From Pyrinomonadaceae bacterium (GTDB lineage: Bacteria; Acidobacteriota; Blastocatellia; Pyrinomonadales; Pyrinomonadaceae), in the NCBI GenBank assembly GCA_019186825.1, contig JABARP010000005.1:1-64000 (forward strand): DNA of 64,000 nucleotides. Direction: 5' to 3'. The notes below the pieces were generated by a model. It was given only the letters and a program-made list of their open reading frames with translations. It was not told the DNA's origin and made no database searches. Positions 24,045 to 27,412 of this stretch are shown here, in pieces. Both the position numbers and the translations under genes were made by a program. The stretch's first letter is position 1; the number at the start of each line of letters is the position of its first letter.

Positions 24045-25075
24045 ACACGCAGTTTCTTCTGGTCCTCGCCCTCGTAGCGACCGCCCTATCTGCCGCGGGC
24101 GTGTTCTTCGTCCGCCGATGGACGCTTGGGAAGGGAATGCTCGACATTCCGAACGAACGAAGTTCGCATTCGGAACCAACTCCGCGTGGTGGCGGCATCG
24201 TGATAGCGATCGTATCGCTTGCGGCATACGTTATTTTTTGCGTCGGCTACCATTCCGCGATCTCATACGGATTTCTTGCCGGTGCGATCCTCATCGTCGC
24301 AGTAAGTTGGATCGACGATGTTCGAGACCTGCCGCCGTTTGTTCGGATCGCGGCACATACCGTTGCAGCGGCCTTGCTTCTTTTTGACCGCGGGCCGTAT
24401 CCGATATTCTTCGGCACCCAACAGGCCGAGCTCTCAACCGCTCTCGAGTTCATAGTCTCGCTTCTTTTCATCGTGTGGCTCGTCAACGCGTACAACTTTA
24501 TGGACGGCATCGACGGGATCGCCGGAGTGCAGGCGTTGGCGGCCTCGGCCGGCTGGTGCTTTCTCGGCGTTGTCTCCGGCGAACCTGCGATCGCGGTTTT
24601 GGCGTGCGTAATTTTCGCCTCAACGCTAGGGTTTCTTTTCTTCAACTGGCAGCCCGCTAAGATCTTTATGGGCGACGCCGGCAGTGCCTTCCTAGGCTTT
24701 ACCTTCGCGGGTATCGGCCTGCTTGCAGCACCAAACTCCGGAAGCCGCATTCTCGCTCTCCCGATCGCCTGTCTGCTTGTCTGGCCTTTCCTATTTGACG
24801 CGTTTTATACGTTGATAAAGCGACTACTTCGGCGGGAGAAGATCTGGCACGCACACCGCAACCACATCTATCAGCAGCTCGTACGACGCGGTTATTCGCA
24901 CGCAGCAGCTTCGACCTGCTACGGCATCCTCGCTCTCTCGATCACGGTCATTACCGTAACGATGCCGACGATCGGCCACAGCCTTGTACCGGCGTGGGTC
25001 GCCGCAGCAATGGTCGGAACTCTCCTCCTCGGCATCGAACAACTGGTCGGCGTGCGGAAGACCTCACAACAATGA
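24041..25075 (+). CDS. Undecaprenyl-phosphate sugar-1-phosphate transferase (MraY/WecA/WbpL family)
   Basis: This 344-aa polytopic transferase attaches the first sugar-1-phosphate to undecaprenyl phosphate and initiates the repeat unit. It has DIPNERSSHSEPTPRGGG (conserved first cytoplasmic loop), SWIDDVRDL, NAYNFMDGIDGIAG and KIFMGDAGSAFLG, and the C-terminal HRNHIYQQL motif shared with WecA and WbpL. About ten hydrophobic segments are visible. A strong GGAGGG (24025-24030) sets the start at ATG 24041, which overlaps the previous stop (ATGA). In this context the substrate may be UDP-GlcNAc or the L-aminosugar. Confidence 0.92.
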   Translation: MNTQFLLVLALVATALSAAGVFFVRRWTLGKGMLDIPNERSSHSEPTPRGGGIVIAIVSLAAYVIFCVGYHSAISYGFLAGAILIVAVSWIDDVRDLPPFVRIAAHTVAAALLLFDRGPYPIFFGTQQAELSTALEFIVSLLFIVWLVNAYNFMDGIDGIAGVQALAASAGWCFLGVVSGEPAIAVLACVIFASTLGFLFFNWQPAKIFMGDAGSAFLGFTFAGIGLLAAPNSGSRILALPIACLLVWPFLFDAFYTLIKRLLRREKIWHAHRNHIYQQLVRRGYSHAAASTCYGILALSITVITVTMPTIGHSLVPAWVAAAMVGTLLLGIEQLVGVRKTSQQ

Positions 25076-25875
25076 CAGCTTCCACGTACGGCCAAAACTT
25101 CATCTCATTTGGCGTTCCCGTGCGTTTTGAATCGCGGAACGCACGCCTTTTTCAGAAAGCGATCGAAACGGCAGACCGTGCACTCATCGGAAACCTAACA
25201 CCCACGCGAAAAAGGCCCGAGCATATTTTCACCTTTGGCCGCGACAAAGAACGCGGGATCTTTGTCGAACACAATGGCGATCTCGCAACCTGCGGCGAGA
25301 TCGAACGCGGCGTCTTCAAATATTTTGATAGCTACCTGCGTGTCCGCATAGGGGAATACTGCCCGAACCGCGTTTTCATTCATTCGGGTGTGGTCGCTCT
25401 CGACGGTAAGGCTCTCCTTATTCCGGGCAATAGTTTTTCCGGAAAATCGACACTCGTGCTCGAACTCGTTAGGCTTGGGGCAGAGTATTTTTCCGACGAA
25501 TTTGCGATCCTTGATGAGCAGGGAAATGTGCATCCGTATGCTAGGCCAATAAATATGCGGACCGATGACGGGAAATATCGGCCCTACACGGTCGATGTAG
25601 GTAGTTCCAAAACGTCCCACAGAGCCGGACTTCCCGTCGCCGCCGTTCTGTTCACAAAATACAAAGAAAGCTCGCGTTTCCGCCCCAAAATATTGAGTCC
25701 CGCGGAAGGCATAATGTCGGTAACTCCATTCACATTGCCCATCAGGGTCAACCCGGCATACTCAATTCGGGTGTTGCAGCAGGTGATGAATAATGCTCTA
25801 ATCATAAGGTCGAAGCGAACTCACGCGCCCCGCTTTGCACAAATATTGTTGCAGTACCTTAACGATTTTTTGTAA
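25072..25875 (+). CDS. HPr-kinase-like P-loop protein (HprK-related kinase A type)
   Basis: This 267-aa protein has a HprK-type P-loop, GNSFSGKST (119-127), followed by the acidic strand GAEYFSDEFAILD (136-148) that matches the HprK region after the P-loop. There is no N-terminal HPr-kinase regulatory domain and no sign of an HPr/PTS substrate nearby. ATG 25072 overlaps the WecA-like stop (ATGA), so it is translated with the polysaccharide operon. Related kinases accompany PqqD-domain proteins in uncharacterised cassettes and in some lasso-peptide clusters (family knowledge). Here the next gene is a PqqD fusion. The substrate is unknown; a peptide Ser/Thr or a sugar are possibilities. Confidence 0.82.
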   Translation: MTASTYGQNFISFGVPVRFESRNARLFQKAIETADRALIGNLTPTRKRPEHIFTFGRDKERGIFVEHNGDLATCGEIERGVFKYFDSYLRVRIGEYCPNRVFIHSGVVALDGKALLIPGNSFSGKSTLVLELVRLGAEYFSDEFAILDEQGNVHPYARPINMRTDDGKYRPYTVDVGSSKTSHRAGLPVAAVLFTKYKESSRFRPKILSPAEGIMSVTPFTLPIRVNPAYSIRVLQQVMNNALIIRSKRTHAPRFAQILLQYLNDFL

Positions 25876-25930
25876 AATATAGCGTTTTCACGTTTTATCG
25901 TAACGTCTTGTTGTTCATTGGAGGATCTGA

Positions 25931-26428
25931 ATGTCTGAATTGCAAACACCAAAAGCCCGAAAACGCGGGCTTGTCGTGCAGGAAATGCCCGGCGAAATGC
26001 TGGTCTATGATACGGAAACGAACAAGGCTCACTGCCTTAATGACAGTGCCGCCTTTGTTTGGACCTCCTGCAATGGTGTGAATACGGTCAGCGATATCGT
26101 TCGCGAGTTCGAAGCGAAAGCAAAAGGAACTGTTACCCAAGACTTCGTCTGGCTCGCGATCGACCAACTCAGTAGCAAAGGTTTGCTTGAGACGAAGATC
26201 GAACCGAGATTCAAGGGCAAAAGCCGCCGCGACGTCCTTAAAAGCATCGGTCTTGCCTCTGTTGCCGCATTGCCGATCATCGCGTCGCTCGCCGCTCCGC
26301 AGAGTGCACTCGCCGCGACCTCATGCAACTGCTCACGCCACTCGGACTGCCCGCAGCTCGGGACTCCCTGCCTGACCAATATGTGCGCGAACACGGGGAT
26401 GACGCCGGCGTTTACATGTACCGCTTAG
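25931..26428 (+). CDS. PqqD-domain protein with internal twin-arginine signal and six-Cys C-terminal tail
   Basis: This 165-aa three-part protein begins with a PqqD-like domain (residues ~15-92): LVYDTETNKAHCLNDSAAFVW, then TVSDIVREF and ending in helix LAIDQLSSKGLLE. Next comes a Tat-type signal within the chain: SRRDVLK at 98-104, a hydrophobic core at 105-121, and ALA/A at 126-129. Last is a 37-residue tail with six cysteines (132, 134, 140, 147, 152, 163). PqqD domains bind precursor peptides for modification enzymes, so the tail may be a peptide carried in cis (inference). A strong GGAGG precedes the ATG and a terminator follows. No radical SAM or other maturase is in the window. Confidence 0.8.
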   Translation: MSELQTPKARKRGLVVQEMPGEMLVYDTETNKAHCLNDSAAFVWTSCNGVNTVSDIVREFEAKAKGTVTQDFVWLAIDQLSSKGLLETKIEPRFKGKSRRDVLKSIGLASVAALPIIASLAAPQSALAATSCNCSRHSDCPQLGTPCLTNMCANTGMTPAFTCTA

Positions 26429-26465
26429 GCAATCTTGTAGGTTATCGGTCCTTTCCTTTGGCGTA

Positions 26466-26493
26466 GGCGGCATTTTGCCGCCTTTTCCTTTTT
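26466..26493 (+). terminator. Rho-independent terminator after the PqqD-fusion gene
   Basis: GGCGGC/GCCGCC stem (26466-26482, loop ATTTT) followed by TTTTCCTTTTT. It lies 37 bp after the PqqD-fusion stop and before the nucleotidyltransferase gene. Most transcripts of the polysaccharide locus should end here, with limited read-through into the last cassette gene. Confidence 0.88.
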
Positions 26494-26530
26494 GCTTCGA
26501 CGCGAAGCGTGTTACTTTGGTACCGAACCA

Positions 26531-27412
26531 ATGCAATACGATCCTGATCAAGCCGAAGATGAGGTCTTTGACGAATACCGCTGGAGCACGATATACCGCG
26601 CAACTCAGCAGAAAAAGATCGTCGAGGCTTTTCGGCTTTTTCGGTCGGAAGGCATCGAACCCGTACTATTCAAAGGTTGGGCCATCGCTCGGGCGTTTCC
26701 CGAAAGCGTGAGCCGGATTTCGTCTGATACTGACCTCGCAGTTTCTTCCGCGGACTTTCCGCGTGCCGAGGCGATCCGAACATCTCCTGCAGGCCGCAAG
26801 CTTGTCATCGATCTTCACAACGAATTCTCCCGGCACGATTCGCTCGACTGGGACACTCTGTTCGCAAGATGTGAAACTGCCGAGATCGACGACGAAGTGA
26901 TACGCATTCTCCGGCCCGAAGACCACTTGCGTGTCGTCTGCGTGCACTGGCTGATCGACGGTGCTCAGTATCGCGAAAAGCTCTGGGACATCTATTACCT
27001 CGTCGCGAACCGCCCGAAAGAGTTCGATTGGCAAATGTGCCTCGACGAGGTCGAACCCAAAAGGCGCCGTTGGATCATTTGCGCGATCGGCCTTGCGGCA
27101 AAGCATTTCGGACTCGACCTGAGCGGCACGCCTATCTCAAATGCGGCAGATACTCTGCCGGGATGGTTGAATGCTCGCGTCGAGAAAGAATGGGCATCGA
27201 CGACAAAACTCGAGCCGCTCGGTGGGCAAATTCGCAACCCTCGGAAGTTCCTGATACAGCTAAAGAAACGTACGCCGCCGAATCCCATCGCAGCGACCGT
27301 CGATGTTGGCGGAAGTTTTGATTCAAAGGTCAGGCTTCATTATCAACTCCACTCATTCGGCCGCCGAGGTCTCGCGTCCCTTCGCCGCTCTTTGTCGTAT
27401 AATAGGCCCTAA
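26531..27412 (+). CDS. Nucleotidyltransferase-fold family protein (NTP_transf_5-like)
   Basis: This 293-aa protein of the uncharacterised nucleotidyltransferase family has VLFKGWA (45-51) and the metal-binding SDTDLAV (65-71), matching the KG...D-x-D pattern. A conserved LDLHNEF-like strand (VIDLHNEFSRHD) and a helical C-terminal half follow. This family frequently accompanies HprK-like and PqqD-like genes in exopolysaccharide loci (family knowledge), so it likely belongs to the same cassette although a terminator separates them. ATG 26531 was chosen because the in-frame TTG 26492 lies inside the terminator tail. Substrate unknown. Confidence 0.75.
   Translation: MQYDPDQAEDEVFDEYRWSTIYRATQQKKIVEAFRLFRSEGIEPVLFKGWAIARAFPESVSRISSDTDLAVSSADFPRAEAIRTSPAGRKLVIDLHNEFSRHDSLDWDTLFARCETAEIDDEVIRILRPEDHLRVVCVHWLIDGAQYREKLWDIYYLVANRPKEFDWQMCLDEVEPKRRRWIICAIGLAAKHFGLDLSGTPISNAADTLPGWLNARVEKEWASTTKLEPLGGQIRNPRKFLIQLKKRTPPNPIAATVDVGGSFDSKVRLHYQLHSFGRRGLASLRRSLSYNRP

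Follow-up and report, generated by a model that had tools for sequence, protein, structure and literature searches.

The 64,000-nucleotide (nt) window analysed here (positions 1 to 64,000 of contig JABARP010000005.1 of a Pyrinomonadaceae bacterium; assembly GCA_019186825.1, 3.2 Mb in 28 contigs) carries a cassette of three co-directional genes at the end of a polysaccharide locus. On the forward strand, a gene for an HprK-related kinase (25072..25875; 267 amino acids, aa) is followed by a fusion gene (25931..26428; 165 aa) and by a gene for an NTP_transf_5 nucleotidyltransferase (26531..27412; 293 aa). The fusion protein, a putative peptide precursor, combines a PqqD domain, a predicted recognition element of the kind used by ribosomally synthesized and post-translationally modified peptides (RiPP recognition element, RRE), with an internal signal of the twin-arginine translocation (Tat) type and a tail with six cysteines. 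We estimate a probability of roughly 60% that the cassette makes a modified, secreted Cys-rich peptide whose precursor carries its recognition element in cis.

Organization of the cassette and its enzymes

The kinase start codon shares the sequence ATGA, a 4-base overlap, with the stop codon of a sugar-phosphate transferase gene (PF00953; 23984..25075, forward strand). This is the final gene of the polysaccharide locus, which also encodes heptosyltransferase-like, Polysacc_synt_2 and UDP-GlcNAc 2-epimerase proteins and two glycosyltransferases. A tsaB-like gene and an acetyltransferase-like open reading frame (ORF) lie downstream of the cassette. The original prediction, made from the sequence alone, had described a P-loop HprK-like protein coupled to a sugar operon, a 165-aa PqqD protein with SRRDVLK, ALA/A and a 37-aa six-Cys tail, and a nucleotidyltransferase gene behind it, all at the end of a polysaccharide locus; each of these elements was recovered in our annotation.

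The kinase contains the Walker A motif GNSFSGKST. Its best match among all profiles was TIGR04352 (HprK_rel_A; 50.6 bits, E = 1.4e-13), and Pfam Hpr_kinase_C was also matched (E = 0.009); these weak but consistent matches point to an HPr kinase-like family. In a 55-row alignment, K125, S141 and D142 are conserved at 100%, H104 at 98% and E143 at 89%. Of the His-Lys-Asp-Asp set of HPr kinase-like enzymes, H104, K125 and D142 are conserved, and the final position is Glu in 89% of the rows. The nucleotidyltransferase scored 76.1 bits against PF14907 (cut-off 31.2), and its K48-G49, R62, D66, D68, D94 and H96 are all 100% conserved (52-row alignment), including the DxD and third Asp of NTP_transf_5 (D66, D68, D94). 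Judged by these alignments, both enzymes appear to retain their catalytic residues. A single-sequence search returned no solved relatives of either enzyme, and a plasmid search with the nucleotidyltransferase gave no match.

A predicted recognition element fused to a fast-evolving Cys-rich tail

The RRE domain of the fusion protein (25970..26188, forward strand; residues 14–86) matched the PqqD profile PF05402 with 31.7 bits (gathering cut-off 23.4; residues 22–64). In the predicted structure, residues 14–82 form three strands followed by three helices, with a predicted local distance difference test score (pLDDT) of mostly 77–90. The top Foldseek matches in the PDB were the leader-bound lasso B1 proteins 5v1v, 5v1u and 6jx3 (template modelling score 0.72–0.78, normalised to the target), which we regard as modest because their E-values range from 0.0016 to 0.04. 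A second family member (L081) returned the same matches and additionally the PqqD structure 5sxy. According to the model the N-terminal domain is an RRE fold, for which leader binding is predicted; together with the PF05402 match, this supports a precursor with its own recognition domain. Domains of this type ordinarily dock modifying enzymes, for which the likely kinase and the likely nucleotidyltransferase are the candidates here. Furthermore, C35 and C47, which had escaped the original prediction, are conserved at 99% and 97% within this domain (75-member alignment). Neither cysteine (window positions 26033–26071, from C35 to C47) has an evident counterpart at the corresponding place of the unfused PqqD proteins compared.

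The predicted exported tail (26315..26425, forward strand; residues 129–165) begins with ATSCNC and holds six Cys in 37 aa with a CxC-first spacing. In the structural model it lies beyond the last helix of the PqqD domain, which answers the concern that it might be an integral part of that fold. In five close relatives, the tail has diverged at nonsynonymous sites ~2–7 times as much as the PqqD domain of the same gene and has kept all six Cys; as synonymous sites approach saturation, dN/dS was not used for the tail. The tail is a separate, fast-evolving module outside the RRE fold.

C140, C147, C152 and C163 are conserved at 96–99% in the 75-member alignment. Tails across the family mostly contain six Cys and are usually SCxC-first, with at least eight Cys in some. 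Of the features singled out by the original prediction, the twin-arginine pair (75/75) and these four tail cysteines hold almost throughout, whereas the full set of six is found in 52 of the 72 tails scored.

Five divergent members display the spacing C..C..CC..C..C of knottins (inhibitor cystine knot, ICK, peptides), which the CxC-first window tail lacks. The tail of one of these members, L081, is predicted to be folded (pLDDT 85–89). Knottin-type profiles match four divergent tails, all under the cut-off, and the window tail has no Pfam match. Knottins and fulvocin C-related proteins (NF033852) are likewise Cys-rich secreted miniproteins, but because the profile matches remain under their cut-offs we claim no homology to either; the likeness to knottins is one of spacing, not of descent or activity. 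Homology to the fulvocin C family was considered and rejected (NF033852, 16.9 vs 35 bits). True fulvocin C-related proteins scoring over the NF033852 cut-off occur in relatives at other loci (L031, G057:C59; L032, G052:C15), some of them duplicated.

Two unusual members are recorded here. On a contig labelled Betaproteobacteria (L089:9989-10408), the tail is just ASGKPPP, with no Cys and with a kinase match nearby. A Gemmatirosa kalamazoonensis plasmid carries another fusion homologue. Behind this PqqD-Tat-Cys gene lies one for a MauE-type protein (L102:6135-7058) with a weak thioredoxin-like (AhpC/TSA) match, as would be expected if disulfides form in the tail.

An invariant twin-arginine motif precedes the tail

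The Tat-type signal (26222..26314, forward strand; residues 98–128) comprises SRRDVLK (residues 98–104), a hydrophobic core and an ALA/A site (residues 126–129). The RR pair is invariant in the 75 aligned members, A126 is present in 53 and A128 in 60, and AxA occurs in 52 and any small-x-small site in 72. All motif elements of a Tat substrate are found, namely S/T-R-R-x-hydrophobic, a hydrophobic core and AxA, and an automatic Tat rule was positive for 70 of the 75 fused members. From this motif and the presence of a TatC gene in the same genome, we infer Tat-type export of the fusion, the route envisaged in the original prediction.

A terminator-like hairpin follows the precursor gene

A terminator-like hairpin (AGGCGGCATTTTGCCGCCT) with a T-rich tail (26465..26483, forward strand) starts 36 nt past the stop codon of the fusion gene. 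In 42 of 77 rows, the fusion gene has a similar hairpin behind it, with varying stems (0.8 expected from shuffles), although the rows include relatives and the 42 are not independent events. At the same loci, which served as controls, hairpins were seen behind just 2 of the 53 kinase and 1 of the 50 nucleotidyltransferase genes. The hairpin may cause partial termination, limiting the downstream enzyme in relation to the precursor, and the fusion is therefore probably made in excess over that enzyme, as a substrate would be.

The fusion is widespread and linked to both enzymes

Fusion homologues occur in 62 of 98 related genomes, mostly at full length including the tail, and, at a stricter threshold, in 62 of 396 genomes sampled from the phylum; the weakest of these matches cover the PqqD part only. 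Most homologues keep both the tail and the RR pair, so that the original prediction withstands this comparison. Named contigs bearing the fusion include metagenome-assembled genomes labelled Gemmatimonadetes and Vicinamibacteria, and tandem copies of the gene occur. The fusion is a real, widespread family, and the cassette is common in Blastocatellia (Acidobacteriota).

Proximity was counted in 46 loci flanked on either side by at least 2.5 kb. A kinase lies within 3 kb in 39 of them, a nucleotidyltransferase within 3.5 kb in 35 and both in 33; the three-part layout thus recurs beside HprK-like genes elsewhere, in support of the two enzymes as partners of the precursor. In clustered loci, the kinase is immediately upstream in 45 of 62 and the nucleotidyltransferase immediately downstream in 42 of 62. 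Of the 98 genomes, 58 have both precursor and kinase, 2 and 3 have one or the other, and 35 have neither (uncorrected for relatedness).

Unfused counterparts in HPr-rel-A cassettes

The enzyme set of the window is the one clustered in the NCBI-annotated HPr-rel-A system (TIGR04352, TIGR04353 and an NTP_transf_5 gene), whose adjacent kinase, PqqD and nucleotidyltransferase are all present in our cassette. On a Sphingomonas plasmid, this system consists of a hypothetical protein, a PqqD chaperone, HprK-related kinase A and a nucleotidyltransferase, and the hypothetical protein has an RR motif, a hydrophobic core and an ALA-type site. A Vibrio plasmid shows the same layout with an RR peptide and, in the PqqD position, an unannotated 84-aa ORF matched by no profile. 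PF14907 is also found in the Sphingomonas and Vibrio cassettes. In four Acidobacteriota genomes, an RR peptide gene precedes a TIGR04353 PqqD gene and a kinase over the TIGR04352 cut-off. The unfused order in all six is RR/Tat-like peptide, PqqD, HprK-related kinase A and NTP_transf_5, with the RR peptide ending ~290–310 nt before the kinase and PqqD occupying the gap. These RR peptides were recognised by eye. The automatic Tat rule was positive for only one of the six, missing such peptides because their core holds K or R, and a Tat profile scored only one (15.6 vs 16.7).

Compared with HPr-rel-A, the window cassette has PqqD and peptide in one protein placed after the kinase, its tail is a Cys6 domain, and its kinase and PqqD part both score far under the NCBI cut-offs (for PqqD, TIGR04353, 13.6 vs 35 bits). 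Peptide and PqqD are thus neighbours elsewhere and fused here, which lends independent support to a cooperation of RRE and Tat peptide. The fusion points to the substrate of HPr-rel-A-type cassettes, a Tat-type exported peptide that has its own gene upstream in each of the six unfused cassettes, and by revealing this likely substrate makes it directly testable. We found no paper naming the substrate of HprK-related kinase/PqqD/nucleotidyltransferase cassettes. The original prediction had stated that no function was described for the arrangement: a description of the fusion was indeed not found in the literature (subscription papers lay outside our coverage), but NCBI names the unfused HPr-rel-A system with the same enzyme set. 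Exosortase (PF09721) genes adjoin two of the unfused HprK_rel_A cassettes in Acidobacteriota (L107:3257-3835 and L115:6737-7504).

Comparison with studied peptide pathways

Closely similar sets of RRE, HprK-like kinase and NTP transferase, often located in capsule loci, are responsible for phosphorylated lasso and LPP peptides (PMC13381572, PMC9266682). In pseudomycoidin biosynthesis, PsmK phosphorylates Ser and the nucleotidyltransferase homologue PsmN adds one or two hexoses to the phosphate (PMC9266682, PMC8498205). Lasso pathways of the paeninodin/pseudomycoidin type (PadeK, ThcoK, PsmK, PsmN; PMC9266682) resemble the window cassette in their HprK-like kinase and nucleotidyltransferase and in making their peptide with an RRE. 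They differ in using an ABC transporter instead of a Tat-type signal and in targeting a C-terminal Ser, whereas the target in the window would lie near the core start; no lasso cyclase (Asn-synthase-like) or B2 protease was found among the annotated neighbours.

In the LPP pathway of Paenibacillus alginolyticus, LppK phosphorylates the core repeatedly at Ser3, and leader cleavage is the work of a signal-peptidase-like enzyme (PMC13381572). Both the LPP genes and the window cassette place an HprK-like kinase gene and an NTP transferase gene beside an RRE within a polysaccharide locus, and signal-peptidase-type leader cleavage and a phosphorylated Ser near the core start are both predicted for the window. 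LPP differs in its discrete RRE, in a separate short precursor with the motif YxxPxVLxHQ, in its origin from Bacillota and in having no reported Cys-rich core. The motif is absent from the 165-aa protein, in which the RRE is fused. LPP clusters also have a dedicated SipW-like peptidase and an MsbA-like exporter, unlike the window cassette, where neither was seen among the annotated neighbours (sugar genes, tsaB-like gene). We liken the window kinase to PadeK, PsmK and LppK by their description.

Signal peptides on precursors of RRE pathways are also known from DUF2063-associated RREs, which are paired with DUF2282 precursors bearing Sec signal peptides (PMC12710340); there the signal is Sec, the RRE resides on a separate protein and the enzymes differ. 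This layout, together with the Cys-rich tail and the Tat-type signal, raises the alternative of a metal-binding peptide whose six Cys bind metal and which uses Tat because it folds around the metal in the cytoplasm. We consider this very unlikely, since no DUF692/MNIO enzyme is among the annotated neighbours and the Cys spacing varies strongly between members, unlike a fixed metal site.

A proposed pathway to a modified, exported miniprotein

The interpretation offered in the original prediction is supported in part. In the pathway that we favour, the PqqD domain of the 165-aa protein would act as an RRE fused to its own substrate and, in the cytoplasm, recruit the HprK-like kinase to the tail. 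By analogy with the studied systems, the kinase would most likely phosphorylate the tail at the conserved Ser adjoining the first Cys, and the NTP_transf_5 enzyme would then probably add a sugar or nucleotidyl group to the phosphate. Tat would next engage the internal twin-arginine signal, while the PqqD domain would remain cytoplasmic. Cleavage after AxA by signal peptidase would release the 34–37-aa tail outside the membrane, where its Cys would pair to yield a compact miniprotein.

The candidate phosphorylation site is Ser131 (26321..26323, forward strand), the third residue past the predicted ALA/A cut and directly before the first Cys. Ser or Thr occupies this position in 49 of 57 kinase-linked members and in 58 of 72 overall. 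As Ser/Thr-type residues are common after signal-peptide cuts, this is suggestive only.

Several observations weigh against the proposed pathway. The kinase score lies far under the TIGR04352 cut-off of 200 bits. Not every member has the Ser before the first Cys; this residue also occurs in 9 of the 15 members whose retrieved contig has no kinase, and could mirror an ordinary signal-peptide preference. In a heterologous host, LPP products were not detectably altered by LppN (PMC13381572), which renders the nucleotidyltransferase step uncertain. Both Tat profiles stay under their cut-offs (PF10518, 11.3 vs 22.7; TIGR01409, 13.6 vs 16.7), and the RR motif lies ~100 residues from the N-terminus, an unusual position for a Tat signal. 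These last two points would suit a membrane-anchored sensor in which the Tat-like segment is an uncleaved signal anchor between a cytoplasmic PqqD domain and a periplasmic Cys-rich domain, and the kinase responds to the condition of the periplasmic domain or has a different phosphorylation target; such a sensor could also accommodate the otherwise unexplained C35 and C47. We nevertheless rate it as quite improbable, given the AxA or similar small-residue site after the hydrophobic segment, the hypervariable tail with its shifting Cys patterns, the high product dosage suggested by the hairpin and the occurrence of the RR peptide as a separate protein in unfused relatives.

The window tail is modelled with low confidence (pLDDT ~50), and some members, e.g. 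L077 and L083, have no nearby kinase. The latter would agree with export of an unmodified disulfide-rich miniprotein, with the enzymes acting on the PqqD domain, a lipid-linked sugar or another partner and only export or assembly depending on them. Cys are the most strictly conserved tail residues and knottin-type tails model as folded, as expected in that case. However, in both studied relatives peptides are what this enzyme set phosphorylates or glycosylates (PMC9266682, PMC13381572), and kinase and precursor co-occur tightly, so that an unmodified product appears unlikely compared with a modified peptide.

A broader proposal, to which we give somewhat less than an even chance, is that the modified peptides constitute a new ribosomal class. 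Its members would carry the recognition element in cis, be phosphorylated and decorated at a conserved Ser, be exported by Tat as folded disulfide miniproteins (knottins in some lineages) and serve Acidobacteriota and Gemmatimonadota at the surface or in combating competitors. HPr-rel-A cassettes that lack the fusion would then represent the same pathway with separate, unrecognised Tat-exported precursors. If true, this would unite a recognition element fused to its own substrate with Tat export of a modified peptide, a combination that we did not find described in the literature searched. The family also offers a large natural library of Cys-rich miniproteins from little-studied soil bacteria.

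Genomic context across the family

The cassette closes a sugar locus across the genus. This position, the adjoining exosortase gene at two unfused cassettes and the presence of LPP clusters in capsule loci (PMC13381572) would be in line with a role in exopolysaccharide assembly, in which the decorated peptide is covalently linked to the polysaccharide or caps it. Such a role is compatible with a modified, secreted peptide, but we consider it rather doubtful, as the surroundings of divergent members are different and include, for example, C25-peptidase or giant surface-protein genes. Gene position is what ties the cassette to polysaccharide, and divergent members lack this tie; for the same reason, a sugar locus is not required.

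Neighbours of the divergent members include a C25 peptidase, DUF4214 and TPR proteins and housekeeping genes, and no other maturase (radical SAM, cyclase, ABC exporter) recurs near them. Peptidase C25 proteins were seen at L081:12086-15067, L085:2371-5568 and L082:11529-15173, sometimes with giant DUF4214 proteins. At one locus (L039:11217-13100), precursor and nucleotidyltransferase are separated by a terminase-like gene; in genome G011 (L040) ~36 kb lie between them, as though mobile DNA had inserted 3′ of the precursor gene.

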